Shown here: positions 836 to 17,590 of the stretch, one piece after another | Layout: each line of letters begins with the position of its first letter | Numbering within the stretch: position 1 is the stretch's first letter | From: a virus | IMG/VR virus record: IMGVR_UViG_3300012988_000001 | Span: 1 to 64,000 of that record | DNA: 64,000 nucleotides | Reading direction: 5' to 3' (one strand) | Program-made: the position numbers and the translations under genes | Notes under the pieces: model-generated | Databases searched by the model: none | What the model was told of the DNA's origin: nothing | The model's input: only the letters and a program-made list of their open reading frames with translations

Positions 836-864
836 CAAGGGGAGGCAATGCTTCCCCTGTTTAT
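836..864 (+). terminator. Hairpin terminator, possibly bidirectional
   Basis: Stem AGGGGA-GC / GC-TTCCCCT followed by TGTTTATTTG on the plus strand. It ends the gene at 381-827. Read on the minus strand the same stem is followed by TTGTGTTATCG, so it may also end the minus-strand small RNA. Confidence 0.8.
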
Positions 865-925
865 TTGTACAGTACTAAATCCTATAGACGGACTGCTGCA
901 CCCTATGGGTTAGCTTGTTTTCATG
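836..925 (-). ncRNA. Small RNA of the CCCACAGGGTGC family, copy 1
   Basis: Minus-strand promoter: -35 TTGACA (955-960), 17-base spacer, -10 TATTAT (932-937), predicted start near 925. The transcript would carry the conserved core CCCATAGGGTGCAGCAGTCC (about 890-909), then CGTCTATA and AGTACT, and would run into the hairpin at 838-858. No ORF is conserved in it. It is one of nine such core copies in the first 18 kb; transcription itself is inferred. Confidence 0.65.
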
Positions 926-1137
926 AGATACATAATACAGGATTTGATCAGTACTGTCAACATCTTTTTCAAATGAATTTAAACGCTCTGTATCGCTCTA
1001 TAAGCCGTTCAACGAATAAGGCAAGCAAACATATTAGGGCAGTACTTTAAACGCGTTATAGGCTTGCTGGTGGCGTTATGCTTTAGTACTGAAATATAAG
1101 GAAAATGAAAAAAGATTGTCAATCTCTTAAAAAGTAC

Positions 1138-1166
1138 TTGACGGATGATCGCAGTACTGGCATAAT
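1138..1166 (+). promoter_or_regulatory. Sigma-70-type promoter, upstream of two
   Basis: -35 TTGACG (1138-1143), 17-base spacer containing AGTACT, -10 CATAAT (1161-1166). It fires into about 110 bases with no convincing gene (small hairpin CAGA/TCTG near 1225-1238) before a second promoter. It may make a leader RNA or simply boost the gene at 1358. Confidence 0.7.
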
Positions 1167-1278
1167 GTATCACATAGAGCGGCGGGACAGGTTAACTTCC
1201 CTAAGTAGACAGCCAGTAAGTCAGACGAAAATCTGGTGTCGCACTGAAAGAAAGATTGAAAAGAGTTTTAAAAAGTAC

Positions 1279-1307
1279 TTGACAAGCTGGTGGGAAATTG
1301 AGATAAT
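1279..1307 (+). promoter_or_regulatory. Sigma-70-type promoter for the 1358 gene
   Basis: AGTACT overlaps -35 TTGACA (1279-1284); 17-base spacer; -10 GATAAT (1302-1307). The leader ends in AAGAGGAAATATACA before the ATG. Confidence 0.85.
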
Positions 1308-1357
1308 GACCCCGTAGACAGCAAACAACCTAACTAAACCTTAAGAGGAAATATACA

Positions 1358-1954
1358 ATGACTACTACTAACAACGCAACCGAAGCACGTGTAACCCTGA
1401 AATCTGCTCTTGAAGCTGGCGACGTAAAAGGCTTGGGTGCAATCCTCGCTAAAATCGGTGGCGATAAAGACGGCGTATCAAAATTGGGCTTGACTTTCTC
1501 CCTCGCAGTAACGGCGGCGAAAGATGTACTCAAAGATCAGGCTAAACAGGCCGCCCTTAACGCAGAAGCCGCAGCGAAACGCCGCGAAGATAAAAAGGCA
1601 GCACGTCAGGCAGAGATCGAAGCACAGAACGCAGAGATCAAGGCAGAGAAAGAAAACATGATCAAGTTCCTCATGGACACCGTGAACGGCCTCGGCCTTG
1701 ACCTTGAAGCGGCAGAAGTAGCAGCACAGGCAGCCGTTGACAAAAAATACGGCGTAAGCGAAAAGGCTAAAAAGTACACCTTTACCCGCGTGGCAGTGGT
1801 TGTAGACGGTAAAGAATACGATATGCCAACGTCCGGTAACATGGTTCAAGTGCTTAAAGATGCCATGACCAAAGGCGGCTACGCAACACACAAAGACTTC
1901 ATTCTTGCACACGCTAAAAACGCAGAAGAAGCCGCAGCAGCTTTCGCTGAATAA
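1358..1954 (+). CDS. Coiled-coil protein with H-NS-like architecture
   Basis: 198 residues. Residues 60-105 are an Ala/Lys/Glu-rich coiled coil (AAAKRREDKKAARQAEIEAQ). The C-terminal 55 residues contain KYTF, then GKEYDMPTSGN, then VLKDAMTKGG and KDFIL. H-NS-type DNA-binding domains show the same order: K-Y-x-aromatic, a Gly-containing loop, an IKKAM helix, and D-F-L. The H-NS loop residues Q-G-R are not present (TSGN instead), so DNA contact through that loop is doubtful. Inference: an H-NS-like oligomer or H-NS mimic acting on the host nucleoid. Base composition is more GC-rich than its neighbours. It has two stacked promoters and a strong terminator, so it is probably abundant. Confidence 0.85.
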   Translation: MTTTNNATEARVTLKSALEAGDVKGLGAILAKIGGDKDGVSKLGLTFSLAVTAAKDVLKDQAKQAALNAEAAAKRREDKKAARQAEIEAQNAEIKAEKENMIKFLMDTVNGLGLDLEAAEVAAQAAVDKKYGVSEKAKKYTFTRVAVVVDGKEYDMPTSGNMVQVLKDAMTKGGYATHKDFILAHAKNAEEAAAAFAE

Positions 1955-1972
1955 GTCAAGTAATTAAAACTA

Positions 1973-2003
1973 AAAGCCTCGCATAATGTGGGGCTTTTTT
2001 TAT
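1973..2003 (+). terminator. Rho-independent terminator
   Basis: Stem AAAGCCTCGCAT/ATGTGGGGCTTT with a run of T residues. Ends the H-NS-like gene. Confidence 0.9.
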
Positions 2004-2025
2004 TATAAAAGATTGTAGAAAGTAC

Positions 2026-2053
2026 TTGCAATACTTTTCTAGTACTGTATAAT
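2026..2053 (+). promoter_or_regulatory. Early promoter with paired AGTACT
   Basis: AGTACT at 2021 and 2041; -35 TTGCAA (2026-2031); -10 TATAAT (2048-2053). Leader hairpin of GGGGAA/TTCCCC type precedes the start at 2101. Confidence 0.85.
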
Positions 2054-2100
2054 GGTTTGCATAGGGGGAAACAACTTCCCCACTAATTAAGGAAAGAATC

Positions 2101-2466
2101 ATGACACCTTTACAACTGATGGCTGACTCTTATATCACGGCGATGCATTGGGCTAGTACTGATGAAAATGGTGATCCACTCGACAACTACCCTACAGCAG
2201 CAGAGGCAAAAGATATTGCGGCAACTACCTGCAATAACTTCCTGAAAGTCCACGGTGATGATCTATCAATCGTAATGGGGTTACATCCTCATTATGGTTA
2301 TGAGCAAGCGGGGCATGATTTGTTTTTGACTCGCGAAGGTCATGGGGCTGGTTTCTGGGATCGTGATCTTGGTCACTATGGGGACGTGTTTACAAAGTAC
2401 TGTCAATCTATTGGTACGGCTGATCCGTATGTGGGCGATGATGGTTTTGTTTACGTTAATGTTTAA
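2101..2466 (+). CDS. Conserved phage protein with HGAGFWDR motif, 121 aa
   Basis: Start chosen by AAGGAAAGAATC before the ATG. The segment QAGHDLFLTREGHGAGFWDR (about residues 70-89) followed by a Y-V-G-D-D-G tail matches a family that I recall in many phage genomes (H-D-[FL]-x-L-T-R-x-G-H-G-A-G-F-W-D-R). Its function is unknown to me. The histidines and aspartates look conserved enough to be functional. Single-gene early unit. Confidence 0.88.
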   Translation: MTPLQLMADSYITAMHWASTDENGDPLDNYPTAAEAKDIAATTCNNFLKVHGDDLSIVMGLHPHYGYEQAGHDLFLTREGHGAGFWDRDLGHYGDVFTKYCQSIGTADPYVGDDGFVYVNV

Positions 2467-2472
2467 AAGTAC

Positions 2473-2500
2473 TTGCATTACTTCTTAAGTACTGTATAAT
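2473..2500 (+). promoter_or_regulatory. Early promoter with paired AGTACT
   Basis: -35 TTGCAT (2473-2478), -10 TATAAT (2495-2500), AGTACT overlapping the -35 and touching the -10, 20 bases apart. Leader hairpin GGGGGAA/TTCCCCC at about 2511-2529. Confidence 0.87.
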
Positions 2501-2548
2501 GATTTGCATAGGGGGAAACATCTTCCCCCATTAATTAAGGAAATGAAA

Positions 2549-2767
2549 ATGGATCTGAATATCAAGATCAACCTCACAGTGAAACAAGTCAATGGTGATG
2601 AAGTTCTCCCACACCACGTAGACGGCCTGCGAGAAAATGCCATTGCTTATATTCTGGAAATGGTTAGCGATGATTGCCGTGAAGGGGAATTTAATGAAGT
2701 AATGGAAAACATCTGTGATGATGAAGAAACAGAATATCGCGGGTACTGGTCGGTTGTAGAGGAATAA
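2549..2767 (+). CDS. Small early protein ending in YRGYWSV, 72 aa
   Basis: The ATG at 2549 is preferred over the in-frame ATGs at 2504 and 2543 because TTAAGGA lies 7 bases upstream. Acidic. The C-terminus (ETEYRGYWSVVEE) and the central helix resemble the product at 11064-11303 (TSYSGWWSVSKED), so the two are probably paralogs. Function unknown. It is followed three bases later by the TraR-like gene. Confidence 0.82.
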   Translation: MDLNIKINLTVKQVNGDEVLPHHVDGLRENAIAYILEMVSDDCREGEFNEVMENICDDEETEYRGYWSVVEE

Positions 2768-2769
2768 TC

Positions 2770-3030
2770 GTGGCTGTCGGATTTGCTAAAGACGGGGCAG
2801 AACAAAACGAGATTATAGCGGTCGTGGAGGCCGCTGTAAGCCACGCAAGGAATCAGCTAGGGGATAACACTACCCCATCGCTTACGCATTGCCTAGACTG
2901 TTCTAAGGCCATTCCTGAGCGTAGGCGTGAAGCTGTTAAGGGTTGCAAATATTGTATTGATTGTCAAGCTGAGTATGATACAATATTCAAACGCAATCCA
3001 CGTAACTGCTGGCACAGGAGTATGAGATGA
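2770..3030 (+). CDS. TraR/DksA-type C4 zinc-finger protein
   Basis: 86 residues from a GTG start with GAGG 8-10 bases upstream. Cysteines C41-x2-C44 and C62-x2-C65, in HCLDCSKAIPERRR and GCKYCIDCQ, match the four-cysteine finger of TraR/DksA. Known members bind the RNA polymerase secondary channel and mimic DksA plus ppGpp; the short length fits phage/plasmid TraR rather than DksA. Inference: alters host promoter choice early in infection. Cotranscribed with the gene at 2549. Confidence 0.85.
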   Translation: MAVGFAKDGAEQNEIIAVVEAAVSHARNQLGDNTTPSLTHCLDCSKAIPERRREAVKGCKYCIDCQAEYDTIFKRNPRNCWHRSMR

Positions 3031-3131
3031 TCTTTAAGTATAACATGGGTTGCTGTTCGCGTCAAGGGTTTTATGCAGTATATTCTGACGGGGTAAACTA
3101 TCGTTATCGGTTTGTCAAGTACTTTATGTAG
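3027..3131 (+). CDS. Micro-protein, 34 aa
   Basis: ATGA overlap with the TraR-like gene and GGAG 9-12 bases upstream. Encodes a 34-residue Tyr-rich basic peptide (MIFKYNMGCCSRQGF...), too short for most gene callers. Its stop sits in the terminator. Possibly the third gene of the operon. Function unknown. Confidence 0.5.
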   Translation: MIFKYNMGCCSRQGFYAVYSDGVNYRYRFVKYFM

Positions 3132-3153
3132 GGGAGAGATCCCCTGTTTATTT
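3129..3153 (+). terminator. Hairpin terminator
   Basis: Stem AGGGGA/TCCCCT followed by GTTTATTTGT on plus. Same layout as at 836 and 9948: plus-strand operon end abutting a minus-strand small RNA. Confidence 0.75.
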
Positions 3154-3211
3154 GTACAGTACTAAATCATAAGGACGGACTGCTGCACCCTGTGGGCCTG
3201 TTTTTGTCTAT
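3129..3211 (-). ncRNA. Small RNA of the CCCACAGGGTGC family, copy 2
   Basis: Minus-strand promoter -35 TTGACA (3241-3246), 17-base spacer with AGTACT, -10 CATAAT (3218-3223), start near 3211. Core CCCACAGGGTGCAGCAGTCC (about 3177-3196), then CGTCC and TTAGTACTG as in copy 1. On minus the hairpin is not followed by T residues, so the 3' end is uncertain. Confidence 0.65.
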
Positions 3212-3281
3212 GCGTGTATTATGCCAGTACTCCACCAGCTTGTCAACATCTTTTTTTCTGAATATTATTTGAAGAAAGTAC

Positions 3282-3309
3282 TTGCATTACTTTTGCAGTA
3301 CTGTATAAT
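3282..3309 (+). promoter_or_regulatory. Early promoter with paired AGTACT
   Basis: -35 TTGCAT (3282-3287), -10 TATAAT (3304-3309), AGTACT at both elements. Leader without G/C hairpin, ending GAGAGGAAAGCAAA. Confidence 0.86.
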
Positions 3310-3339
3310 ACTTACATCAACCACAGAGAGGAAAGCAAA

Positions 3340-3561
3340 ATGACTAAGTACCTGATGGAAGTTTTTACTACTGAAAACGTAGCAACCAATGTAAAGCGTT
3401 ATTACAAGGTTGTTTGTGGTGTAGGCCGCAGAATCAGTAAGGCAGACTATCAGAAGCTGGAAGATAACGCGGAGGGGGCTTGCTGCTTTAGTACTGTAAA
3501 CACGAAAACCCATATTAAGCAATACAAAACTTTAGAGTTCTATACTGATTTAGTTTTGTAA
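3340..3561 (+). CDS. Unknown early protein, 73 aa
   Basis: Strong AGAGGAAAG ribosome site. Sequence starts with a strand-forming MTKYLMEVFTTENV and is mildly basic, with Cys at 46-60. No family recognised. The stop codon lies immediately before the -35 region of the next promoter, so the unit is monocistronic. Confidence 0.83.
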   Translation: MTKYLMEVFTTENVATNVKRYYKVVCGVGRRISKADYQKLEDNAEGACCFSTVNTKTHIKQYKTLEFYTDLVL

Positions 3562-3567
3562 AAGTAC

Positions 3568-3595
3568 TTGCATTACTTCTTAAGTACTGTATAAT
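3568..3595 (+). promoter_or_regulatory. Early promoter with paired AGTACT
   Basis: -35 TTGCAT (3568-3573), -10 TATAAT (3590-3595). Leader hairpin GGGGGAA/TTCCCCC at about 3606-3623. Confidence 0.87.
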
Positions 3596-3642
3596 GATTT
3601 GCATAGGGGGAACAACTTCCCCCACTAATTAAGGAAACGAAA

Positions 3643-3867
3643 ATGGCACTTATCAAGATTATCGAATCAAACGTAGCAGGTCAAGAAAGCACTTTCATTG
3701 AATATGATACTGATTCGTTTGACGAACGTTATGCGGTGCAATACGGTGGATCTGGTATCACGTTCAATGGCACAAAGGAAGGTTGGAAATGTGCGGTTGA
3801 AGATTATTTGTCAAACGTTAAACACCAATTAGAAAGTGCCGCACAAGAAGGTGGCTACCTCGCATAA
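3643..3867 (+). CDS. Unknown early protein, 74 aa
   Basis: Start preceded by TTAAGGAAACGAAA. Short acidic protein with a beta-rich first half (MALIKIIESNVAG) and a C-terminal helix (CAVEDYLSNVKHQLESAAQE). No recognised family. Confidence 0.83.
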   Translation: MALIKIIESNVAGQESTFIEYDTDSFDERYAVQYGGSGITFNGTKEGWKCAVEDYLSNVKHQLESAAQEGGYLA

Positions 3868-3883
3868 AGTTTTACTCCAGTAC

Positions 3884-3912
3884 TTGACATACTAATCGAG
3901 TACTGGCATAAT
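3884..3912 (+). promoter_or_regulatory. Early promoter, TTGACA type
   Basis: AGTACT, then -35 TTGACA (3884-3889), 17-base spacer ending in AGTACTGG, -10 CATAAT (3907-3912). Confidence 0.85.
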
Positions 3913-3948
3913 GACTTTATCGAAACGAAACACTATTAAGGAATTATC

Positions 3949-4242
3949 ATGGCTAAGTATTGCAGAGAGTGCGGCGGGTTGTGTGTAGTAGATGATTTTG
4001 GTGTATCGAATCATATCTATGAAAACGGTGATATTCACCACGTGCTGGATGGTGATCATGTGGCTATCCCTGAGATGGAAGAAACATTGATCAATGAGGA
4101 AGTTTTCGACTTCTGCAAAGATCATTATGAATGTTTCAACGCATACCCTACTGAGTGCGAATTGTCAAACGGTGATGTTTATTCTTTTGCCGAAATGATG
4201 AAAGTACTTTCAGAGGAACAAAAGCAAGAAATTGAAAAATAG
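3949..4242 (+). CDS. Unknown acidic protein with N-terminal CxxC
   Basis: 97 residues, ribosome site TTAAGGAATTATC. The N-terminus YCRECGGLCVV has CxxC plus a third Cys, a possible partial metal site with His at 18, 26 and 27. The rest is acidic. No known family. Stop overlaps the next promoter region. Confidence 0.83.
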   Translation: MAKYCRECGGLCVVDDFGVSNHIYENGDIHHVLDGDHVAIPEMEETLINEEVFDFCKDHYECFNAYPTECELSNGDVYSFAEMMKVLSEEQKQEIEK

Positions 4243-4245
4243 TAC

Positions 4246-4273
4246 TTGCATTACTTTCTGATTACTGTATAAT
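4246..4273 (+). promoter_or_regulatory. Early promoter
   Basis: -35 TTGCAT (4246-4251), -10 TATAAT (4268-4273). The second AGTACT is degraded to ATTACT. Leader hairpin GGGGGAA/TTCCCCC follows. Confidence 0.86.
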
Positions 4274-4323
4274 GTTTTGCATAGGGGGAAACATCTTCCC
4301 CCATTAATTAAGAGAATAATATC

Positions 4324-4704
4324 ATGGCTAACCAAATCACTCCAGCACAGATCTTTAACAAGTACGAAATTCAGATTGTACTGGTAGAGTATGTTCCATC
4401 CTATGGATGGTCTGACGCTTGCGTAGCCGAAGATGTAGCCGATGCAAAGCGTATCATTAAAGAGTATGCCGCAGAAGGTATCAGCCTGAAAAGTGTTCGC
4501 CGCTGGGTGCTTAACAAAGATGCGTTTCTCTGTCAAGCCCTGTTGAACTTCTGCCGTGACTACTATCGCCGTACTGGTGGACTTTGGCCTAATGAGGTTG
4601 AAGTACTGAAAGCTAACGGGGTGAAGAAATTCACCTTGACTTTGAAAGAAATCGAAGAAGTACTGGGTAATGATTGCCGTTTAGTTACTTCTCAGGCAGT
4701 ATAA
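4324..4704 (+). CDS. Unknown early protein, 126 aa
   Basis: Start supported by TTAAGAGAATAATATC. Mixed alpha/beta protein; the middle (KDAFLCQALLNFCRDYYRRT) is an amphipathic helix with two Cys. No recognised domain. Monocistronic. Confidence 0.84.
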   Translation: MANQITPAQIFNKYEIQIVLVEYVPSYGWSDACVAEDVADAKRIIKEYAAEGISLKSVRRWVLNKDAFLCQALLNFCRDYYRRTGGLWPNEVEVLKANGVKKFTLTLKEIEEVLGNDCRLVTSQAV

Positions 4705-4711
4705 AAAGTAC

Positions 4712-4739
4712 TTGACACTATACGGGGATATGATATTAT
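4712..4739 (+). promoter_or_regulatory. Promoter with -10 inside an inverted repeat
   Basis: -35 TTGACA (4712-4717), 16-base spacer, -10 TATTAT (4734-4739). GGGGATAT and ATATCCCC flank the -10, a possible operator. Similar palindromes lie at the promoters before 9311, 10760 and 15114. Confidence 0.8.
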
Positions 4740-4769
4740 ATCCCCATCTTAAGCAAAGAAGGTAATACA

Positions 4770-4961
4770 ATGTCTAGAATCTCAAACGCCGCCTTAGATG
4801 CTTTCGCACTGAAAGTAATGGCTGTTAGTACTAACAAGTCATGGGGTACTGATCAGTTTAAACGTCTGGTAATTTGTGCGGGTAACGGCATGACTGTAGA
4901 AGAAACCGCCAAAGAAATCGATGCAATGACTATTGACAAAGATCAGGATAATGGACTATAA
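4770..4961 (+). CDS. Unknown early protein, 63 aa
   Basis: AAGAAGGTAATACA before the ATG. Entirely helical in appearance, Ala-rich first half (NAALDAFALKVMAV). First gene of a three-gene unit with 4951 and 5142. No recognised family. Confidence 0.82.
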   Translation: MSRISNAALDAFALKVMAVSTNKSWGTDQFKRLVICAGNGMTVEETAKEIDAMTIDKDQDNGL

Positions 4962-5142
4962 TAAGGTTAACAAGCGAGTACTGGAGTTATCAAGGAAAGC
5001 ACGTAAAGAGTACACCTTAGATCGTTCAATTAGCAACTATCATTTAATGCAAGGTGATAAGTTTATTGTTATTGACGAACCGCTGGAAGTAGTGTATATT
5101 GTAGTTAATGCGATGATTCGCGACAAAACGAGGATTAAGTAA
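4951..5142 (+). CDS. Unknown basic protein, 63 aa
   Basis: Start at MDYNKVNKR overlaps the previous gene by 11 bases; an in-frame ATG at 4933 is the alternative, and neither has an ideal ribosome site (AGGA is only 2 bases from 4951). Basic N-terminal half (VLELSRKARKEY) and a strand-rich second half. Linked to the next gene by a TAATG junction. Confidence 0.72.
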   Translation: MDYNKVNKRVLELSRKARKEYTLDRSISNYHLMQGDKFIVIDEPLEVVYIVVNAMIRDKTRIK

Positions 5143-5390
5143 TGCGTACTATCTTTGACCTGCAAGACAAAGGAACTATGGCACGTAGATCAATGGTTAC
5201 TGTAGGCGGGAAACAACACTGGAGCGGTTATGTATGCTTCATTGTTGGCGGGAAAATGTATGAGCGGGTAGTATACCACAAAGAGCTTAATTACATTCTT
5301 TTCCGTAAAGAAGTGATCGCTATCGAACCAGAAGCCCTCAAACCGATTGCAGGGGCTTGGAATAAAGAATCGCTGAATGTATCAGCTTAG
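5142..5390 (+). CDS. Unknown early protein, 82 aa
   Basis: TAATG junction with the previous gene; GAGGATTAAGTA ribosome site. Beta-rich with YVCFIVGGKMYERVVYH. No known family. Ends the 4770-5390 operon at a GC hairpin. Confidence 0.82.
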   Translation: MRTIFDLQDKGTMARRSMVTVGGKQHWSGYVCFIVGGKMYERVVYHKELNYILFRKEVIAIEPEALKPIAGAWNKESLNVSA

Positions 5391-5397
5391 TTAATTA

Positions 5398-5420
5398 AAG
5401 GCCGCACAGAGCGGCCTATC
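5398..5420 (+). terminator. GC hairpin after operon
   Basis: Stem AGGCCGC/GCGGCCT with loop ACAGA. No T-run follows, so it may be a weak terminator or an mRNA 3' stabiliser. Confidence 0.5.
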
Positions 5421-5440
5421 GCTCATATGGGGGTATTATA

Positions 5441-5584
5441 ATGAATCCACGCAACATATTAATCAAACCACCAGCAACAAAGGCAGAACGGGCAGAACGC
5501 CGACGCAACCGCATGAAGTCACTTGTAAAGGCTGGCTATTCACGTTCACACGCTTTCAAACTTGCAAAGGAAGAAATAAAATGA
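5441..5584 (+). CDS. Small basic protein, 47 aa
   Basis: ATG at 5441 after GGGGGTATTATA. Contains KAERAERRRNRMKSLVKAG, strongly Arg/Lys-rich, then SRSHAFKLAKEEIK. Candidate nucleic-acid or polymerase-binding micro-protein. ATGA overlap with the next gene supports it being translated. Function unknown. Confidence 0.65.
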   Translation: MNPRNILIKPPATKAERAERRRNRMKSLVKAGYSRSHAFKLAKEEIK

Positions 5585-5778
5585 AACTTTGTCAAGTACT
5601 GGACGAGATTGAAAATATTGTTGACAGAAAACAACAATATGATACACTGTTATCAAGAAGTCAGGCAAATGAAGTTGAAAGGCAACGGATAGAAGGGGCA
5701 GAATGTGAATCGTTATACGCAACCGCAGCACAGGGGAATAAGTACAGCAGCACAACGTCGCAAGCCAGCAAAGACTAA
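5581..5778 (+). CDS. Unknown protein, 65 aa
   Basis: Begins in an ATGA overlap, AAAGGAAGAAATAA upstream. Predicted helical (VLDEIENIVDRKQQYDTLLS). Its last 74 bases overlap the gene at 5705, so one of the two ends may be wrong; the C-terminal Ser/Thr-rich part looks like out-of-frame sequence. Confidence 0.6.
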   Translation: MKLCQVLDEIENIVDRKQQYDTLLSRSQANEVERQRIEGAECESLYATAAQGNKYSSTTSQASKD

Positions 5779-6007
5779 ACACAGAAAGTACTTAAGAGAA
5801 CCCGTTCCCGTAGATACTAGCTGGCTGATGGATTATGACGTACAGCATATGTATTTGAATGGGGGATGGTCATTTGGTAACGGTATGATCTGGGGTAGTA
5901 CTGGCAGTGGTAAGAGTAATATCGGTGCAATGTATTTTAGTAAATTGAATGGCTGGACTTCTGCCGCCCCGAAAAAAGATTTTGAATCCCCGTTCAAAAA
6001 GGCTTGA
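5705..6007 (+). CDS. Small protein with a Walker A-like loop, 100 aa
   Basis: GTG start with AAGGGG 7-8 bases upstream. Basic N-terminus (AAQRRKPAKTKHRKY). GSTGSGKSN near residues 65-73 fits the Walker A pattern GxxxxGK[ST], but there is no room for Walker B or a full P-loop fold. The loop is encoded by AGTACT-rich DNA, so the match could be fortuitous. Stop overlaps the promoter of the following small RNA. Confidence 0.6.
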   Translation: MNRYTQPQHRGISTAAQRRKPAKTKHRKYLREPVPVDTSWLMDYDVQHMYLNGGWSFGNGMIWGSTGSGKSNIGAMYFSKLNGWTSAAPKKDFESPFKKA

Positions 6008-6032
6008 CACAATACCGGCTTAGTGAGATAAT
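6004..6032 (+). promoter_or_regulatory. Promoter of plus-strand small RNA
   Basis: -35 TTGACA (6004-6009), 17-base spacer, -10 GATAAT (6027-6032). The stop of the preceding gene is the TGA inside the -35. Confidence 0.8.
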
Positions 6033-6038
6033 ACTTAC

Positions 6039-6115
6039 AAGCCGGAACAAAGGCACATACCCACAGGGTGCGGAAAAGTATTCAGTACTTGAGAATGATA
6101 ATCATTTACATCAAC
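6039..6115 (+). ncRNA. Small RNA of the CCCACAGGGTGC family, copy 3
   Basis: Core CCCACAGGGTGC at 6060-6071, about 21 bases after the predicted start. The 3' half of the motif is diverged (GGAAAAGTATTC), then CAGTACTTG. Transcribed towards copy 4 on the opposite strand; the two cores form an inverted repeat about 70 bases apart. Extent is inferred. Confidence 0.55.
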
Positions 6116-6153
6116 AGACGGATTCCTGCACCCTGTGGGCTAGTTGTTTTCAT
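6085..6153 (-). ncRNA. Small RNA of the CCCACAGGGTGC family, copy 4
   Basis: Minus-strand promoter -35 TTGACA (6183-6188), 17-base spacer containing AGTACT, -10 CATGAT (6160-6165), start near 6153. Core CCCACAGGGTGCAGGAATCC then CGTCTG. Converges on copy 3; a short palindrome AATGATAATCATT (about 6094-6106) lies between the two cores. Confidence 0.6.
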
Positions 6154-6222
6154 GGCTTTATCATGCCAGTACTGGATAGGTTTGTCAACTACTTTTTAAT
6201 GAAAAGAATTTGAAAATAATGC

Positions 6223-6664: not shown

Positions 6665-6672
6665 GAAAGTAC

Positions 6673-7904: not shown

Positions 7905-7943
7905 TAAAAAGGGGTTGACTTCGGTTAGCCCTTTTGCTATTAT
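7905..7943 (+). promoter_or_regulatory. Composite terminator-promoter, copy 1
   Basis: AAAAGGGGTTGAC-TTCG-GTTAGCCCTTTT forms a hairpin with UUCG loop and T-run (7907-7935) ending the upstream gene. The same bases supply the -35 TTGACT (7915-7920) and the spacer of a promoter with -10 TATTAT (7938-7943). The new transcript starts after the hairpin. Five near-identical copies exist in the window. Confidence 0.85.
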
Positions 7944-7949
7944 ATAGTC

Positions 7950-8026
7950 ATTGGCAGATAAGCTACTAACCCACAGGGTGCAATAGTCTGTCTGTTAAAA
8001 AGATATTAGTACTTTAATCTTTTATG
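7950..8026 (+). ncRNA. Small RNA of the CCCACAGGGTGC family, copy 5
   Basis: Begins after the composite element. TCATTGGCAGATAAGC leader shared with copies 7 and 8, then core CCCACAGGGTGCAATAGTC (7970-7988) and TGTCTG. A possible terminator stem AAAAGAT/ATCTTTT encloses an AGTACT near 7997-8022. The next gene has its own promoter, so this transcript has no gene of its own. Confidence 0.65.
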
Positions 8027-9944: not shown

Positions 9945-9947
9945 CAC

Positions 9948-9979
9948 GAAAGGGGGCAGATAGCCCCCTGTTTATTTGT
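9948..9979 (+). terminator. Hairpin terminator
   Basis: Stem AGGGGGC/GCCCCCT followed by GTTTATTTGT on plus; on minus followed by TTTCGTGTTATT, so usable in both directions. Confidence 0.8.
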
Positions 9980-10035
9980 ACAGTACTAAAACCTATAGAT
10001 ACATTTGTGCACCCTGTGGGCTAGTGTTCTCTATG
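9950..10035 (-). ncRNA. Small RNA of the CCCACAGGGTGC family, copy 6
   Basis: Minus-strand promoter -35 TTGACA (10065-10070), 17-base spacer, -10 CATAAT (10042-10047), start near 10035. Core CCCACAGGGTGCACAAATG, then TATCTATAGG and TTAGTACTG. Ends at the hairpin 9951-9969. Confidence 0.65.
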
Positions 10036-10104
10036 GGATACATTATGCCAAAATGCTGGTGGCTTGTCAACAACTTTTTTAACGAGTTAATTAAAATAAA
10101 GTAC

Positions 10105-12258: not shown

Positions 12259-12261
12259 CCG

Positions 12262-12297: not shown

Positions 12298-12304
12298 AAA
12301 GAAC

Positions 12305-12556: not shown

Positions 12557-12559
12557 TAA

Positions 12560-12595
12560 AAAAGGGTTGACTTCGGTTGGCCCTTTTGCTATTAT
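12560..12595 (+). promoter_or_regulatory. Composite terminator-promoter, copy 2
   Basis: AAAGGGTTGAC-TTCG-GTTGGCCCTTTT hairpin ends the upstream unit; -35 TTGACT (12567-12572), 17-base spacer, -10 TATTAT (12590-12595). Confidence 0.85.
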
Positions 12596-12601
12596 ATACG
12601 C

Positions 12602-12660
12602 ATAGAAACAAACTAGCCCACAGGGTGCATAAATACGTCTATAATTTACCGAAAGGAGAA
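12602..12660 (+). ncRNA. CCCACAGGGTGC element in an mRNA leader, copy 7
   Basis: Core CCCACAGGGTGCATAAATA (12617-12635) then CGTCTATA, ending at the ribosome site GAAAGGAGAAA of the gene at 12666. This is the only copy clearly placed as a 5' leader, which suggests the element can act in cis. Confidence 0.6.
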
Positions 12661-12665
12661 ACCAT

Positions 12666-13202
12666 ATGCCCGGACAATTCCGATCAAAAGCAGGTGCTAC
12701 GCTCGCAGGTCATAGCGACAAGTGGAGCGACGAGAACCGCAGAACAAACAGCCACAACGCAGGACAGGGTTCACGAGGTTCCCGCAACCAAGGCACTGGT
12801 GCACAAGGCAAAGCAAACACCGTAGCATCACAAGGTATCGACACATCCAGAATGAAACCAGAAGAGAAGCTACGCTATTTTAATTCTCTTGGATTACTTG
12901 GGAACAAACCAGAACCAGAAATCGAAGTAGAGCCACCAAAACACCACCAGCAAGCACCAGTAGACAGCAAGACACTAATCAGTAACCTACGCGAACAATG
13001 GTCCGAGATCTTCGGAGAGAACGCAGGACTGATGAAAGGCATCATTAACACAATGAAGCAAGTCCCACCAGCTAAGTTTAAGAAAGCAGCACAGGCAGCA
13101 TATAGAGCCACCGCAGAGATCACAGCAAAGACTGATGATATCTATGATATACAAGAATACATCCAGAACGCAATCAATGAGATTGCCTATCAAGATCTAT
13201 AA
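12666..13202 (+). CDS. Unknown protein with disordered N-terminus, 178 aa
   Basis: Start set by GAAAGGAG. Residues 1-60 are Gly/Ser/Asn/Gln-rich and basic (GQFRSKAGATLAGHSDK, SRGSRNQGTGAQGK), likely disordered; residues 90-178 are helical (TLISNLREQWSEIFGENAG, AAQAAYRATAEITAK). No known family. Only gene of the window led by the CCCACAGGGTGC element. Confidence 0.86.
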   Translation: MPGQFRSKAGATLAGHSDKWSDENRRTNSHNAGQGSRGSRNQGTGAQGKANTVASQGIDTSRMKPEEKLRYFNSLGLLGNKPEPEIEVEPPKHHQQAPVDSKTLISNLREQWSEIFGENAGLMKGIINTMKQVPPAKFKKAAQAAYRATAEITAKTDDIYDIQEYIQNAINEIAYQDL

Positions 13203-13206
13203 AAAA

Positions 13207-13242
13207 TAAAGGGTTGACTTCGGTTAGCCCTTTTGTTATTCT
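13207..13242 (+). promoter_or_regulatory. Composite terminator-promoter, copy 3
   Basis: AAAGGG...CCCTTTT hairpin with TTCG loop; -35 TTGACT (13214-13219), 17-base spacer, -10 TATTCT (13237-13242). Confidence 0.84.
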
Positions 13243-13269
13243 ATCAGTACAACAACAGAGGACAACACA

Positions 13270-13551
13270 ATGAAACATATACTCACCATTCTCGCAGTAC
13301 TGGCATCATTCAACGCAGCAGCCACGACACCACCGCATGAAGTTAGATGTACGTCCTCCGGTATTCCTAGCATCATTGTATTAGCTGATGGTGTACTGAT
13401 GGATGATATGGAGCGTCTTATTGCAACAGAGATTCACACTGGAATCTTTGAATCTATTGACGAATACGGCAAAGTAACATATACTATTCATGGTAACAAT
13501 ATTATCATGAAAGGAAACGGATTCACTAAAGAGTATGTCTGTGATCTATAA
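13270..13551 (+). CDS. Exported protein with signal peptide, 93 aa
   Basis: MKHILTILAVLASFNAAATT is a typical Sec signal: short basic n-region, hydrophobic core and an A-x-A site, cleavage near residues 19-20. The mature part is about 73 residues with two Cys (27 and 91) that could form a disulfide in the periplasm. Such early exported phage proteins are candidates for superinfection exclusion or envelope effects; no family recognised. Confidence 0.85.
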   Translation: MKHILTILAVLASFNAAATTPPHEVRCTSSGIPSIIVLADGVLMDDMERLIATEIHTGIFESIDEYGKVTYTIHGNNIIMKGNGFTKEYVCDL

Positions 13552-13726
13552 AATTGTACTCAAAGGCTTAATGCCCGGTAGCGAAGTCTGGGAACAGCAC
13601 ACAGCATTCATCTCATCACAACCCGGTGATGACATAGATGGCATGATACTTGCACACATCTATGAATGGCGTAGCAAAGCAGGATACTACAAAGTGAAAT
13701 ATATGTCAAAAGAGGTAATCCAATGA
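13535..13726 (+). CDS. Unknown protein, 63 aa
   Basis: Overlaps the exported protein gene by 17 bases, suggesting translational coupling. Beta-rich (MSVIYKIVLKGLMPG), basic C-terminus. No family recognised. Confidence 0.72.
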   Translation: MSVIYKIVLKGLMPGSEVWEQHTAFISSQPGDDIDGMILAHIYEWRSKAGYYKVKYMSKEVIQ

Positions 13727-13751
13727 GATAACTTTACAGAGGATTATCTTA

Positions 13752-13967
13752 ATGCCAACTCATTCTATTATTTTAAATGGTAAACGTTTCAAGATGACTG
13801 AGGGAGTTTTACAAAGTACTAACACACAATTGATCCTTGACAAATTGACTAAGGATGAATGTGATGCTATACTACGTGAAGCAAATAAAATTAAATCCAC
13901 CGTAGCAGCACATCCGGTCAAACGTCAACTGTTACAGGGAATTATTATGGGGTGTTTGCGTAAATGA
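13752..13967 (+). CDS. Unknown basic protein, 71 aa
   Basis: AGAGGATTATCTTA before the ATG. Strand followed by helices (TKDECDAILREANKIKSTV). ATGA overlap with the next gene. Confidence 0.78.
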   Translation: MPTHSIILNGKRFKMTEGVLQSTNTQLILDKLTKDECDAILREANKIKSTVAAHPVKRQLLQGIIMGCLRK

Positions 13968-14116
13968 TTTATCAAGAGATTGTCAAGCGATTAAAAGAGC
14001 TTGACTTTGGTAATGCAATACGTTATGCTAGTGCAAATGCATTCGAACTGCAAGCACTGCACGATCAAGGTCATAGCATTGAGTCGCTGGTGGAGATCTG
14101 TTTAAACCATAAATAA
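13964..14116 (+). CDS. Small protein, 50 aa
   Basis: ATGA overlap. MIYQEIVKRLKELDFGNAIR then EIQ-type helix and SIESLVEICLNHK. Helical, resembling small phage regulators, but not assignable. Confidence 0.65.
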   Translation: MIYQEIVKRLKELDFGNAIRYASANAFELQALHDQGHSIESLVEICLNHK

Positions 14117-14136
14117 CCTTGTAACCTTACAAGGAG
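14117..14136 (+). promoter_or_regulatory. Hairpin covering a ribosome binding site
   Basis: CCTTGTAA and TTACAAGG are perfect inverted repeats 2 bases apart; the right arm contains AAGG of the AAGGAG ribosome site of the next gene, so translation may be sequestered. Confidence 0.6.
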
Positions 14137-14142
14137 TATAAC

Positions 14143-14412
14143 ATGGTTAAAACAGATTTAAACACGGTCCAATCATGGCACAAAGTCCAGTTAGACCAAC
14201 TGCCCCAACTTTTAAAAGATCAAGGGTTCCAATATGTAAAAGCATTCAGTACTGATGAACATAGAATCTTTGTATCACAGGATGGTAACTACAAATTGAT
14301 TATACATAAAAACGTAGGGAAACTATATCCTACTAAAAATAATCAGTGCTTGCACACATTTGCAATTGTTGCACCAATGCCAAAATTAAATGACGTTAAA
14401 AGGGTTGACTAA
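14143..14412 (+). CDS. Unknown protein, 89 aa
   Basis: AAGGAGTATAAC before the ATG. Helix (HKVQLDQLPQLLKDQGF) then strands (YKLIIHKNVGKLY). The last four codons and the stop lie inside the next composite terminator/promoter. Confidence 0.8.
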   Translation: MVKTDLNTVQSWHKVQLDQLPQLLKDQGFQYVKAFSTDEHRIFVSQDGNYKLIIHKNVGKLYPTKNNQCLHTFAIVAPMPKLNDVKRVD

Positions 14413-14433
14413 GGTCGGCCCTTTTGCTATTAT
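14398..14433 (+). promoter_or_regulatory. Composite terminator-promoter, copy 4
   Basis: AAAAGGG...CCCTTTT hairpin, loop TAAG instead of TTCG; -35 TTGACT (14405-14410), 17-base spacer, -10 TATTAT (14428-14433). Overlaps the coding end of the previous gene. Confidence 0.82.
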
Positions 14434-14461
14434 AACTACATCGAAACGAAGGAGTTAAATC

Positions 14462-15052
14462 ATGTACGTCACTAAAGCAGCCAAAGCACATCTTAAAGCA
14501 CTGGACCTGTTACCTACTAATAACCAAATGCTTAAGTACTGTAGAGAGAATCTTACTCGTTTGGGTAAAGGTTCTAGTCGTGAAGTGTTTGCACTCTCCG
14601 ATACGCTGGTGGTCAAGGTGGCACTGGGCGGCGTAGGTGTGAAGCAGAACGAGAATGAGATCCGAGTGTGGAATCTCGTCAGCTATGACTACATCGGAAT
14701 GAAACGTTCCTTTGCTAAAGTACTGGTAAATGAAGGACACTGGAAGGACTTCTATATTGTAATGGAACGTCTGGAAACTAACACAGTGTCACGCAGCATC
14801 TTTAATACTAAAACAGTGCAGCAATGGCGTACTGATCGCAAAGCAATGCATCCTACTGCCAAGCGTATTTTTAAAGATGTACAAGACACCGACGACAACG
14901 CGTTTACCAATAACATTGCAGACATTACGCCTCGCAATATGGGAACATCAAAATCAGGTGTTGTCAAGATGCTTGACTATGGTTTTAGTACTCCCATATG
15001 GAATGGTATCGCGAAAGGCAAACTAAAAAATCGCGAATTACTTATTCGTTAG
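14462..15052 (+). CDS. Minimal protein-kinase-like protein, 196 aa
   Basis: Kinase-like signatures in order: glycine loop RLGKGSSREVF (residues 33-43), VVKVAL with the candidate Lys 52, acidic NENEIRVW (63-70), hinge-like IVMERLE, then NIADITPRNMG (about 152-161, catalytic Asp plus metal Asn pattern D-x4-N) and VVKMLDYGF (DFG-like, Asp about 171). The usual HRD is replaced by IAD. At 196 residues only the core is present. Known phage kinases (T7 gp0.7) phosphorylate host transcription and translation proteins; that role here is inference. Driven by composite element 4. Confidence 0.85.
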   Translation: MYVTKAAKAHLKALDLLPTNNQMLKYCRENLTRLGKGSSREVFALSDTLVVKVALGGVGVKQNENEIRVWNLVSYDYIGMKRSFAKVLVNEGHWKDFYIVMERLETNTVSRSIFNTKTVQQWRTDRKAMHPTAKRIFKDVQDTDDNAFTNNIADITPRNMGTSKSGVVKMLDYGFSTPIWNGIAKGKLKNRELLIR

Positions 15053-15055
15053 TAC

Positions 15056-15084
15056 TTGACAGATAATAGCTGGTGGGATATAAT
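15056..15084 (+). promoter_or_regulatory. Early promoter
   Basis: AGTACT overlapping -35 TTGACA (15056-15061), 17-base spacer, -10 TATAAT (15079-15084) flanked by GGGAT/ATCCC. Confidence 0.86.
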
Positions 15085-15113
15085 TATCCCATCAACTACA
15101 GAGGAAAGCAATC

Positions 15114-15335
15114 ATGGGATTCAAAGTTCGCCAGTGGTCAACAACAAACGCTCGCCCATTCGATGTAGTGTACGAAGACCACGCACTAAACAACGTACAC
15201 TATCAGCCAAACGTAGAGTTTAGTACTCCAGAACTGGCAGAGCATCACATGCAATCACTGGTTAAAAACTTCACAGATGATAGTCTATCATTCATTCGTG
15301 ATCACTGGCCTACCGATGGTGCAGTAACAGAATAA
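15114..15335 (+). CDS. Unknown early protein, 73 aa
   Basis: AGAGGAAAGCAATC upstream. Beta-rich N-terminus (MGFKVRQWSTTNARPF), C-terminal helix. No family recognised. Confidence 0.82.
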   Translation: MGFKVRQWSTTNARPFDVVYEDHALNNVHYQPNVEFSTPELAEHHMQSLVKNFTDDSLSFIRDHWPTDGAVTE

Positions 15336-15341
15336 CAAAAG

Positions 15342-15376
15342 AAAGGGTTGACTTCGGTCGGCCCTTTTGTTATTAT
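15342..15376 (+). promoter_or_regulatory. Composite terminator-promoter, copy 5
   Basis: AAAGGG...CCCTTTT hairpin with TTCG loop; -35 TTGACT (15348-15353), 17-base spacer, -10 TATTAT (15371-15376). Confidence 0.85.
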
Positions 15377-15400
15377 ATCAGTACATCCAAAGGGGGACAT

Positions 15401-15511
15401 ATGAAATATATTTTGATGGTAGGTATGATGATTTTATATCAACGCCAAACAGCATTCCCATTGCTGGGAATTATTGCAATTCTTACTGGTTTATTGATTT
15501 GGAGATGGTAA
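15401..15511 (+). CDS. Membrane micro-protein, 36 aa
   Basis: AAAGGGGGACAT before the ATG. MKYILMVGMMILYQRQT then PLLGIIAILTGLLIW: two short hydrophobic segments around a YQRQ turn, likely an inner-membrane hairpin. Ends three bases before the next ATG region. Function unknown. Confidence 0.68.
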   Translation: MKYILMVGMMILYQRQTAFPLLGIIAILTGLLIWRW

Positions 15512-15512
15512 C

Positions 15513-15665
15513 ATGGCTAAGGTCACGATTGAAACAGTAAAAGAAACCATTAAGTTAATGGATGAATTGAACGGCACGGATCATTATAATACTATTGATT
15601 GGGATAATCCCAGTACTGAATTACCTGCTTTCTTAACTGATAAGAAAGATGATAAAAAGGATTGA
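15513..15665 (+). CDS. Small acidic protein, 50 aa
   Basis: Follows the micro-protein directly (GGAGATGGTAAC upstream). Helix (VTIETVKETIKLMDELNG) then an acidic/lysine tail (DKKDDKKD). Stop TGA is the TGA of the next -35 TTGACA. Confidence 0.68.
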   Translation: MAKVTIETVKETIKLMDELNGTDHYNTIDWDNPSTELPAFLTDKKDDKKD

Positions 15666-15690
15666 CACATAACTGCCAATGAGATATTAT
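15662..15690 (+). promoter_or_regulatory. Small RNA promoter inside a 10-bp inverted repeat
   Basis: -35 TTGACA (15662-15667), 17-base spacer, -10 TATTAT (15685-15690). CTGCCAATGA (15673-15682) and TCATTGGCAG (15695-15704) flank the -10, a candidate operator. Confidence 0.82.
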
Positions 15691-15696
15691 ATAGTC

Positions 15697-15770
15697 ATTG
15701 GCAGATAAGCTACTAACCCACAGGGTGCAGTAGTCCGTCTATAGTTTGAGTACTTACAATATTGTAAATG
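15697..15770 (+). ncRNA. Small RNA of the CCCACAGGGTGC family, copy 8
   Basis: TCATTGGCAGATAAGC leader, core CCCACAGGGTGCAGTAGTCC (15717-15736), then CGTCTATAG and GAGTACTTAC. Most consensus-like copy. No ORF follows closely; 3' end unclear. Confidence 0.68.
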
Positions 15771-15790
15771 ATCTTGACCGCCGAGGCAAT

Positions 15791-15817
15791 TTGATCAATA
15801 ATTGATCAAGAAATTTT
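15791..15817 (+). terminator. Palindrome with T-run
   Basis: TTGATCAATAATTGATCAA perfect inverted repeat followed by GAAATTTTA; candidate terminator for small RNA copy 8 or a protein site. Confidence 0.5.
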
Positions 15818-15830
15818 AGAGTACTGGATT

Positions 15831-15983
15831 ATGGTTGAAATTATGAAACAATATGGTAATGTATTACTGAAAACGGAGAACGACTATTATGTAGTAAGAT
15901 CGGGCCGCGAAAGTATTCAAACACAAAACGCTTTCCATGCTCTGGTATGGTATGCAAAATTTATCATGAAGGAAAACAAATGA
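15831..15983 (+). CDS. Possible small protein, 50 aa
   Basis: ATG at 15831 (or 15843) with weak ribosome site. MVEIMKQYGNVLLKTENDYY then AFHALVWYAKFIMKENK. ATGA overlap with the next micro-protein supports translation. No promoter seen immediately upstream. Confidence 0.55.
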   Translation: MVEIMKQYGNVLLKTENDYYVVRSGRESIQTQNAFHALVWYAKFIMKENK

Positions 15984-16099
15984 GAATACCTGCTCTTATC
16001 CTTCTAGTACTCGTCGTGCTGTATGTAGCTAATGCTATACAGGATGAAAGCAGTATTCAGTACTGGAATGAAATGAAATATTATTGGAATAAGTCTTGA
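15980..16099 (+). CDS. Signal-anchored micro-protein, 39 aa
   Basis: MRIPALILLVLVVLYVANA is an N-terminal hydrophobic anchor or signal, followed by a 20-residue Trp/Tyr-rich tail (SSIQYWNEMKYYWNKS). AAGGAAAACAA upstream. Stop TGA lies in the next -35. Function unknown; likely inner membrane or periplasm. Confidence 0.68.
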   Translation: MRIPALILLVLVVLYVANAIQDESSIQYWNEMKYYWNKS

Positions 16100-16124
16100 C
16101 ATAGCTGGTGGACTATCCTATAAT
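16096..16124 (+). promoter_or_regulatory. Strong promoter, TTGACA/TATAAT
   Basis: -35 TTGACA (16096-16101), 17-base spacer, -10 TATAAT (16119-16124). Confidence 0.88.
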
Positions 16125-16153
16125 ATATACATCTTAACAAAGAGGATTACCAA

Positions 16154-16333
16154 ATGGTACACGTAGATCTGGAAGTACAAAAGAAAGTCTGGTACGATAT
16201 CGGCCTGAAAGGTATTAACTGGTCTGACGCTCAATACGCTGCACTCAAAGCACTTGACCGTTATCAACGTGAACAAGTACTTGAGGCACACAAGAAAGGT
16301 GTGAATGACCGCATCGATCTTGAAGTACTGTAA
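16154..16333 (+). CDS. Small helical protein, 59 aa
   Basis: AGAGGATTACCAA before the ATG. MVHVDLEVQKKVWYDIGLKG then AALKALDRYQREQVLEAHKK. Helical, balanced charge. No family recognised. Strong promoter and terminator define a single-gene unit. Confidence 0.78.
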   Translation: MVHVDLEVQKKVWYDIGLKGINWSDAQYAALKALDRYQREQVLEAHKKGVNDRIDLEVL

Positions 16334-16338
16334 ATCCT

Positions 16339-16369
16339 AAAAGGCCAATAACACATTGGCCTTTTTTTC
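16339..16369 (+). terminator. Rho-independent terminator
   Basis: AAAGGCCAAT/ATTGGCCTTT stem with seven T residues. Confidence 0.93.
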
Positions 16370-16455
16370 GTTTATACACTAAATCAATTACGATTTCAAG
16401 AAATTTTAGAAAGTACTTTAAATCGAAAATAGTTTATATAAATTTCAGAAAGTAC

Positions 16456-16483
16456 TTGCAATCAATATTAGAAAGCGTATAAT
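16456..16483 (+). promoter_or_regulatory. Early promoter
   Basis: -35 TTGCAA (16456-16461), -10 TATAAT (16478-16483), AGTACT at the -35 and another 35 bases upstream. About 85 AT-rich bases separate it from the preceding terminator. Confidence 0.85.
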
Positions 16484-16536
16484 GTATTACATCGAGAGGG
16501 GAAATGGTTCTACTCTCAAACGTTAAGGAAATGATT

Positions 16537-17067
16537 ATGTACTCTTCAGTTCAAACTATGGTTAACGTCAACGCTGCTACTGGTATCGCTTATGGTTACA
16601 TCAACGCTAACAATGTAAACGGTGATGTACTGCATGATATCTTCTGCAATGGCATCGATTCACGCAGATTAGAATGTGATATCGAGTTTGCTTCAAAACA
16701 TGGTTTCGTTACTCCTGAGCAGGAAGAGAATGAATTATTCAGTACTTACCTCGCTCGCATTCAAGATGTAATGCTTGACTTCCTTAACAATCTGCAAGAT
16801 GAGGAAGGTAATGATCTCACAGAACTGGTGGAAGAACATGATCGCCAGTACGAAGAGTTTACAGGTGATATCCACGTAGCAACAATCGATGACACTACTG
16901 TTATCTATAACACTGACAGTAATACTATCTGCGTGATGGATAGCAAAACTGTAGGGAAGTACTTCTTATGCTCCCCTTGCTGCCCTAACGCTGGTGATTT
17001 GGATAGTGCTGGTGGCGATGTAGAAACTTACGATGTACCAGCTAGCTGGCGTGAAATGGACTACTAA
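16537..17067 (+). CDS. Conserved phage protein ending in DVPASWR, 176 aa
   Basis: ATG at 16537 chosen over 16504 because TTAAGGAAATGATT precedes it. Acidic. The C-terminus CSPCCPNAGDLDSAGG...TYDVPASWR resembles a conserved ending I recall in unknown phage proteins (C-S-P-C-x-P-N-A-G-D). The clustered Cys suggest a metal site. Function unknown. Confidence 0.87.
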   Translation: MYSSVQTMVNVNAATGIAYGYINANNVNGDVLHDIFCNGIDSRRLECDIEFASKHGFVTPEQEENELFSTYLARIQDVMLDFLNNLQDEEGNDLTELVEEHDRQYEEFTGDIHVATIDDTTVIYNTDSNTICVMDSKTVGKYFLCSPCCPNAGDLDSAGGDVETYDVPASWREMDY

Positions 17068-17108
17068 TATAGCGAATGAGCGATGATATGTCAAGTCTAA
17101 AAAAGTAC

Positions 17109-17136
17109 TTGCAATCATCGCTCAGTACTGTATAAT
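17109..17136 (+). promoter_or_regulatory. Early promoter with paired AGTACT
   Basis: -35 TTGCAA (17109-17114), -10 TATAAT (17131-17136); leader hairpin GGGAGAA/TTCTCCC. Confidence 0.86.
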
Positions 17137-17186
17137 GATTTGCATAGGGAGAGAATAGTTTTCTCCCAATAGTAAGGAATACTGTT

Positions 17187-17471
17187 ATGTTTAACGGTCA
17201 TATTGCAAACTTCGCATTACGTCGCGGTGTAGAGATTCAAGTAGTCGAAGCAAATGAAATCGACAATGAATACAATGAATTGTGGTTCTACGCCGCAGAC
17301 AATGACTGTGAGCCAGAAATGATGTACATCCAAAACAATGATGGTACTTTATCATTCAAAGGTAAGTTAAACAAATCACTTGAAGATCTGCCAGCGTGGA
17401 TCGATAGCAAAGATAAACTGAAAAAAGTTATCTGCTATCTGTCAGATATGCTCGCTGCCGAAGCAATGTAA
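17187..17471 (+). CDS. Unknown acidic protein, 94 aa
   Basis: AAGGAATACTGTT upstream. Acidic (NEIDNEYNELWFYAADNDCEP), strands then C-terminal helix (KLKKVICYLSDMLAAEA). No family recognised. Confidence 0.83.
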   Translation: MFNGHIANFALRRGVEIQVVEANEIDNEYNELWFYAADNDCEPEMMYIQNNDGTLSFKGKLNKSLEDLPAWIDSKDKLKKVICYLSDMLAAEAM

Positions 17472-17488
17472 TCTTTACAAAACAGTAC

Positions 17489-17517
17489 TGGACATAACAA
17501 GCCAGTACTGTTAATAT
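17489..17517 (+). promoter_or_regulatory. Promoter of small RNA copy 9
   Basis: -35 TGGACA (17489-17494), 17-base spacer with AGTACT, -10 TAATAT (17512-17517). Confidence 0.7.
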
Positions 17518-17523
17518 GTAGTC

Positions 17524-17590
17524 ATTGGCAGATAAGCCGTAGCCCACAGGGTGCAGAGATCCGTCTATAGCTTTTAAGTACTAATTAATT
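17524..17590 (+). ncRNA. Small RNA of the CCCACAGGGTGC family, copy 9
   Basis: TCATTGGCAGATAAGC leader, core CCCACAGGGTGCAGAGATCC (17543-17562), then CGTCTATAG and AAGTACTAA. No ORF attached; next gene has its own promoter. Confidence 0.65.

Follow-up and report, generated by a model that had tools for sequence, protein, structure and literature searches.

The early region of a large bacteriophage genome contains multiple copies of a short element that has its own promoter, a conserved core and, in most cases, no gene attached to it. It was found in a 64,000 nucleotide (nt) stretch of DNA (the window), which is positions 1 to 64,000 of the 366,160-base phage record IMGVR_UViG_3300012988_000001; the phage is here called W. 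Comparison of the copies with those of related phages establishes, at the level of sequence, that they are non-coding, that their leader stem-loop is conserved, that there are 10–12 of them concentrated in each terminal repeat or early region, and that their order is kept. We consider it about an even chance that they are paralogs within one phage family of non-coding RNA genes, which would be trans-acting, multi-copy and immediate-early, and whose RNA would be a sequence-read ligand or decoy for one partner.

W, whose hosts are gut-type bacteria, is a very large virus. By DNA similarity it belongs to the RaK2/121Q/GAP32/CBB/Munch group of jumbo phages, where it is closest to Klebsiella phage fENko-Kae01 (fENko) and to the Salmonella phages SE_PL, 7t3, Munch and PHA46. 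The hosts of phages with the element belong to several enterobacterial genera.

Core, leader and non-coding character

The window was scanned for the core with up to 2 mismatches allowed and with sequence shuffles as the control. This gave 10 matches, compared with a mean of 1.41 and a maximum of 4 in the shuffles. The tenth match, at 41344, has 2 mismatches and is at chance level. The other nine had all been listed in a first-pass annotation of the window, some at their exact positions and others shifted by 1–2 bases. That annotation placed each core 20–35 bases after a sigma-70-like promoter with 17-base spacing. The spacing is exactly 17 bases at all nine, four of which are on the minus strand as described, and the measured start of the core falls within a narrower range, 20–27 bases after the -10 hexamer. 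Nine is the count for the window only, as the whole genome has 11 copies: two further promoter-borne copies, at 364779 (plus) and 364854 (minus) of the record, lie outside the window in the same terminal repeat. A 12th core match in the record, at 93685, is without a promoter. Because only the window had been seen, the first-pass annotation missed the total of 11, the convergent pairs and the 5' stem-loop, and also that the copies are confined to the terminal repeat. Its claim that most copies continue with TCCGTCTATA does not hold, since this is exact in just three of the nine (copies 909, 15717 and 17543).

In an alignment of 89 distinct copies (51 effective), from a search in which one mismatch was allowed, the CCCA and GGGUG columns are invariant, the two middle bases are variable, and the columns flanking the core are restricted to purine or pyrimidine. 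The family consensus after GGGTGC is R-N-N-R-R-T-S-Y-R-T-C-Y-A-T. The stretch between the transcription start site and the core is either short, with the core about 20 bp after the -10, or lengthened by a stem-loop. Short-leader copies have an unpaired GAAACAA at the 5' end. Every one of the 40 distinct long leaders has the 5' stem-loop, against 16.6 +/- 3.0 (maximum 26) in shuffled sequences, and 23 different stems with A-rich loops form it. The leader stem-loop is thus conserved at the RNA level, which marks the element as an RNA feature. The core can also pair, as the stem RCCC-ANN-GGGU, in 100% of copies; three of its four pairs never vary and there is no compensatory change. Since the leader stem varies freely while the core stem shows no compensatory change, the core is conserved by its sequence, and not merely as a stem, and appears to be read that way.

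A second helix, GGGUG/YRUCY, is pairable in 97.7% of copies, compared with 70% or less for slid versions. It excludes the core hairpin and is predicted to be about 4 kcal/mol weaker. The exchanges within it (G-U/G-C, U-A/U-G) are one-sided in all five pairs, with no two-sided change, and an RNA switch by way of this helix is possible only. Some copies show pairing between the leader and the UCUAU segment; overall it is weak. A 5' stem-loop (GCATAGGGGGAAACAACTTCCCC) also opens many early messenger RNAs (mRNAs) of W, such as those at 2050–2090 and 2505–2535 of the window and others with similar leaders, and early transcripts of this phage may thus carry an A-rich-loop stem-loop in general.

Do the copies encode anything? 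Strong promoters in eight early regions were examined for an open reading frame (ORF) with a Shine-Dalgarno sequence and ATG starting within 75 nt. Such an ORF follows 3 of 64 core-bearing promoters, whereas it follows 114 of 157 core-less ones (p = 2.8e-22). The core therefore marks non-coding transcripts and is not a part of the promoter; it is normally outside mRNA leaders. By the same test eight of the nine copies in the window are without an attached gene, and the single mRNA leader is copy 12617, which reads into the ORF at 12666–13202, both as previously annotated. With a promoter of their own (92 copies) and no protein-coding continuation, the copies have these two features of small non-coding RNA genes. 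A short conserved peptide was rejected, as open reading lengths vary widely and no common start was seen.

Distribution and arrangement in the terminal repeat

Pattern scans of relatives and of IMG/VR identified 92 promoter-borne copies in 12 genomes. Besides W these are fENko, SE_PL, Hallingskeid, G17, OU509535, the metagenomic record 2029527005, and the IMG/VR records taken as RaK2, GAP32, CBB, BF and 121Q. A corrected IMG/VR pattern found contigs that belong to known records, and a further two that measure 354 and 358 kb. The matches to a 107-nt probe are the phage group of W, others being marginal (Bacteroides phages, E = 0.3). Presence of the core in close relatives had been set beforehand as a check on the first-pass annotation, and it was found in all relatives examined. 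Pattern scans gave no match in plasmids or E. coli genomes, and the strict pattern gave none over the bacterial and archaeal genome collection. Mimicry of a host element was rejected on these results.

A sequence model built from 44 diverse copies matches eight whole genomes 11, 20, 11, 20, 10, 24, 10 and 12 times. In records that contain both repeats every copy occurs twice, giving totals of 20–24, and all eight genomes have 10–12 copies per terminal repeat or early region. A terminal repeat has been reported for CBB (PMC5259590). The copies are inside the annotated terminal repeats of fENko (19,736 bp) and CBB (22,456 bp), and inside a comparable early region of about 20 kb in genomes without an annotated repeat. 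Of the earlier interpretation of the copies as trans-acting RNAs made right after infection, the following stands: an RNA family, non-coding, with strong host-type promoters, found in relatives and confined to the early-gene terminal repeat.

Three arrangements recur. Minus singles have a terminator-like hairpin, in most cases 40–41 nt past the core (W, fENko, SE_PL, Munch, Hallingskeid, CBB, BF), and their RNA is predicted to be about 90 nt long. No terminator can be recognised in plus singles, which precede the promoter of the next gene or, in rare cases, a gene itself; for most of them that promoter is 40–80 bp further on. In convergent pairs two copies face each other about 70–90 bp apart, and most pairs, in most lineages, enclose a Fur-box-like site.

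The order of the copies is +-/-/+-/+/-/+++ in fENko and Munch and is nearly kept in W, Hallingskeid, CBB and BF. Few of the neighbouring genes are shared to this extent, with homologs detectable for 12 of the 56 early ORFs of W in the CBB region and 15 of the 56 in the BF region. The order and orientation of the elements thus largely outlast most neighbouring genes, and conservation of the RNA is much stronger than that of the surrounding genes.

In fENko, Munch, BF and CBB the left genome end and the first convergent pair are separated by 996–1008 bp; for W, whose left end is predicted, the distance is about 1050 bp. Fur-box-like sites are also clustered in the non-coding left end of W and fENko (L014:18240-18380, about 364440–364580 of the whole record, and L009:690-800). 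The same place in CBB and BF has a different repeat array (GGATAGACGTTTAGACGG-like).

Proposed action and rival explanations

If the copies are genes of one RNA family, host sigma-70 RNA polymerase, unmodified, would transcribe each of them from its near-consensus promoter once that DNA enters the cell. The RNA would carry the A-rich-loop stem-loop or GAAACAA at its 5' end, then the invariant R-CCCA-NN-GGGUG-C, then the YRUCYAU segment. Minus singles would give an RNA of about 90 nt that ends at the hairpin about 41 nt after the core, plus singles would place the same 5' element on transcripts heading toward the next gene, and convergent pairs would yield two partly complementary RNAs spanning the Fur-box-like site. 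Made at high dose from many templates, the RNA would act in trans as a decoy for a partner conserved in the Enterobacterales hosts or in the phage group. We infer action in trans because most copies lack an attached gene, the minus singles end at a defined point, the copies are many and the core is read by its sequence; early timing, high dose on one conserved partner, and titration by the RNA belong to the same inference. The partner is somewhat more likely to be a protein than an RNA. More tentatively, and with rather more doubt than confidence, we suggest a new phage RNA family whose 10–12 genes per terminal repeat flood the cell and capture a conserved host factor, possibly with an iron/Fur input through the pairs, as a step in host take-over that has not been described before.

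Several points weigh against the RNA-family explanation. No RNA has been observed, and a literature search for transcript data of the phage group found none. The plus singles, being without a recognisable terminator, would read into the next gene, and action in cis is therefore possible for some copies. Copy 12617 leads a real mRNA, and as such is conserved in SE_PL, Munch and one metagenomic relative. Terminators on the minus strand are weak, and the plus-strand gene upstream may be what they chiefly serve. Nor was a partner found by searches for a ribosomal RNA (rRNA) complement, pairing with phage gene starts or a host counterpart. The complement of the core has no match in the E. coli rrnB rRNA operon, the one operon searched, and an antisense to rRNA was rejected on this basis. 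Pairing with 467 phage gene starts has a mean duplex energy of -10.71, against -10.69 +/- 0.58 for shuffled RNA; with no excess complementarity, a small RNA that base-pairs with the starts of phage mRNAs was also rejected.

The main rival, by virtue of the unterminated plus singles and the true leader at 12617, is a cis-acting 5' leader element, in which the transcribed core would alter RNA polymerase or its own transcript (as in HK022 put or lambda nut, or through stability or processing). The fixed position of the element near the transcript 5' end suits such a role, as do plus singles that head unterminated to the next gene and the one copy that directly leads an mRNA. We nevertheless think it unlikely, given that no ORF begins within 75 nt of about 95% of the core-bearing promoters and that, for most plus singles, the next gene has a promoter of its own 40–80 bp further on. 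Antitermination of the minus singles would produce antisense RNA only, and instead they meet a hairpin at a constant distance. The convergent pairs serve no gene.

Those pairs could have a different purpose. Their RNAs, each holding core and anti-core and folding as long hairpins, would be mutually complementary, and the left-end pairs might control replication in the manner of ColE1 RNA I/II, with the singles titrating their products. In keeping with this, a pair lies about 1.0 kb in from the left end of fENko, Munch, BF and CBB, and of W when measured on its predicted end, and the non-coding left end has iteron-like or Fur-like repeat arrays. However, the NN positions of core and anti-core lose complementarity in some pairs, and most copies are singles outside any pair, which makes the explanation quite unlikely. 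Highly improbable, in our judgement, is a DNA element, that is, a protein-binding site (operator or roadblock) in the initially transcribed region of early promoters. Its association with promoters is fixed, and AGTACT and Fur-like sites nearby are DNA motifs, but gene-driving promoters of the same class lack the core, and for this reason a promoter or operator element was rejected as the principal explanation. The promoter-core spacing, moreover, is about 20 or about 25–28 bp, switching with the inserted RNA stem-loop, whose stems vary while pairing is kept.

Copies in the window and comparison with known systems

Three of the copies are minus singles. The first (832..960) has its -35 at 955–960, -10 at 932–937, core at 898–909 (CCCATAGGGTGC) and hairpin at 839–857, with a predicted RNA from about 925 to 832. 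The second (3125..3246) has the -35 at 3241–3246, -10 at 3218–3223 and core at 3185–3196; its hairpin, at 3131–3144, is a weak intrinsic terminator that was missed by the terminator scan. The third (9945..10070) has the -35 at 10065–10070, -10 at 10042–10047, core at 10009–10020 and terminator hairpin at 9952–9968, with a predicted RNA from about 10035 to 9945.

The convergent pair consists of a plus half (6004..6071; -35 6004–6009, -10 6027–6032, core 6060–6071), with the 5' stem-loop GCC-GGAACAAA-GGC, and a minus half (6128..6188; -35 6183–6188, -10 6160–6165, core 6128–6139). Between the two cores is the Fur-box-like site 6091..6109 (plus strand; GAGAATGATAATCATTTAC), which matches the consensus at 16 of 19 positions where 0.02 such sites are expected per window.

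The plus single at 7915..8013 has its -35 (7915–7920) within a terminator-like hairpin (7912), then the -10 at 7938–7943, a stem-loop leader, the core at 7970–7981 and AGTACT at 8008; the next gene promoter is at about 8035 and its ORF at 8095. That at 15662..15754 has the -35 at 15662–15667, -10 at 15685–15690, a stem-loop leader, the core at 15717–15728 and AGTACT at 15749. The last (17489..17582) has the -35 TGGACA at 17489–17494, -10 at 17512–17517, leader TGGC-AGATAA-GCCG, core at 17543–17554 and AGTACT at 17577, with the next promoter at about 17613. In the mRNA-leader copy (12564..12665, plus strand) the -35 (12567–12572) is again within a terminator-like hairpin, and is followed by the -10 at 12590–12595, the core at 12617–12628 and a Shine-Dalgarno sequence before the ORF. 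The product of this ORF matches phrog_16530, a virion structural protein family, and is not a recognisable RNA-binding protein. Promoters with the -35 inside a terminator-like hairpin (GGGTTGACTTCGGTTGGCCCTTTT, then TATTAT) are found at 7912, 12564, 14402 and 15345 of the window, where one short sequence seems both to end one transcript and to start the next.

AGTACT does follow most copies, as first noted, and is not specific to them, being about 4–7x over-represented genome-wide. There are 911 in the whole record against about 212 expected (2nd-order Markov), at 5.3/kb in the early region (window 1–18500 is densest) and about 2/kb elsewhere, also within genes. It flanks the -35 and -10 of many early gene promoters and is similarly enriched in all relatives checked. 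Many 6-base palindromes are extremely depleted in 64001–344000 of the record (AAGCTT 0 against 117 expected, CCATGG 0 against 60, CAGCTG 0 against 52), and GCGC is absent there, in the early region of the window and in the early regions of fENko and CBB. The depletion looks like restriction-site avoidance. An early gene at 2770–3030 of the window encodes a DksA/TraR-type zinc-finger protein (Pfam PF01258, E = 1e-8), which might modify host RNA polymerase.

The early take-over of the host by jumbo phages is usually sought among many unknown small proteins, yet in this group nothing found in the early terminal repeat is as well conserved as an RNA element. An invariant, sequence-read RNA at such a dose should have one important partner. 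The element would also supply a new Rfam family and an annotation marker for the terminal repeats of the group. Rfam 15 covariance models run on window 1–19000 (E<=5) gave best matches that are far below gathering scores and do not fit the copies, and no description of the element was found in the open-access literature, subscription papers and preprints being outside the search; three papers there contain the core string but deal with unrelated topics.

Among known systems, the put sites of HK022 and the nut sites of lambda are likewise close to the 5' end of early phage transcripts that the host polymerase synthesises. Those sites are cis-acting, on transcripts that read into genes, whereas here there is no gene behind most copies, and behind some there is a terminator-like hairpin. 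The likeness to ColE1 RNA I/RNA II, as convergent complementary RNAs, here near a genome end with repeat arrays, is limited to the convergent pairs; most copies are singles. Titrating RNAs of the CsrB/CsrC type share the many copies of a short motif per cell, which suits protein titration. CsrB has many GGA motifs within one RNA. Here there is one motif per RNA, in many genes, and a CsrA sponge was rejected because the invariant stretch is GGGUG and the GGA after it is only partly conserved. Phage small RNAs described so far are mostly single-copy and either base-pair or have an unknown action. The element resembles phage-encoded regulatory small RNAs in being a short non-coding transcript that could affect host or phage gene expression, as proposed for them (PMC12197685). 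It differs in having 10–12 paralogs per terminal repeat with an invariant core in every genome of the group examined, and we file it as a phage-encoded small RNA of unusual copy number and placement.

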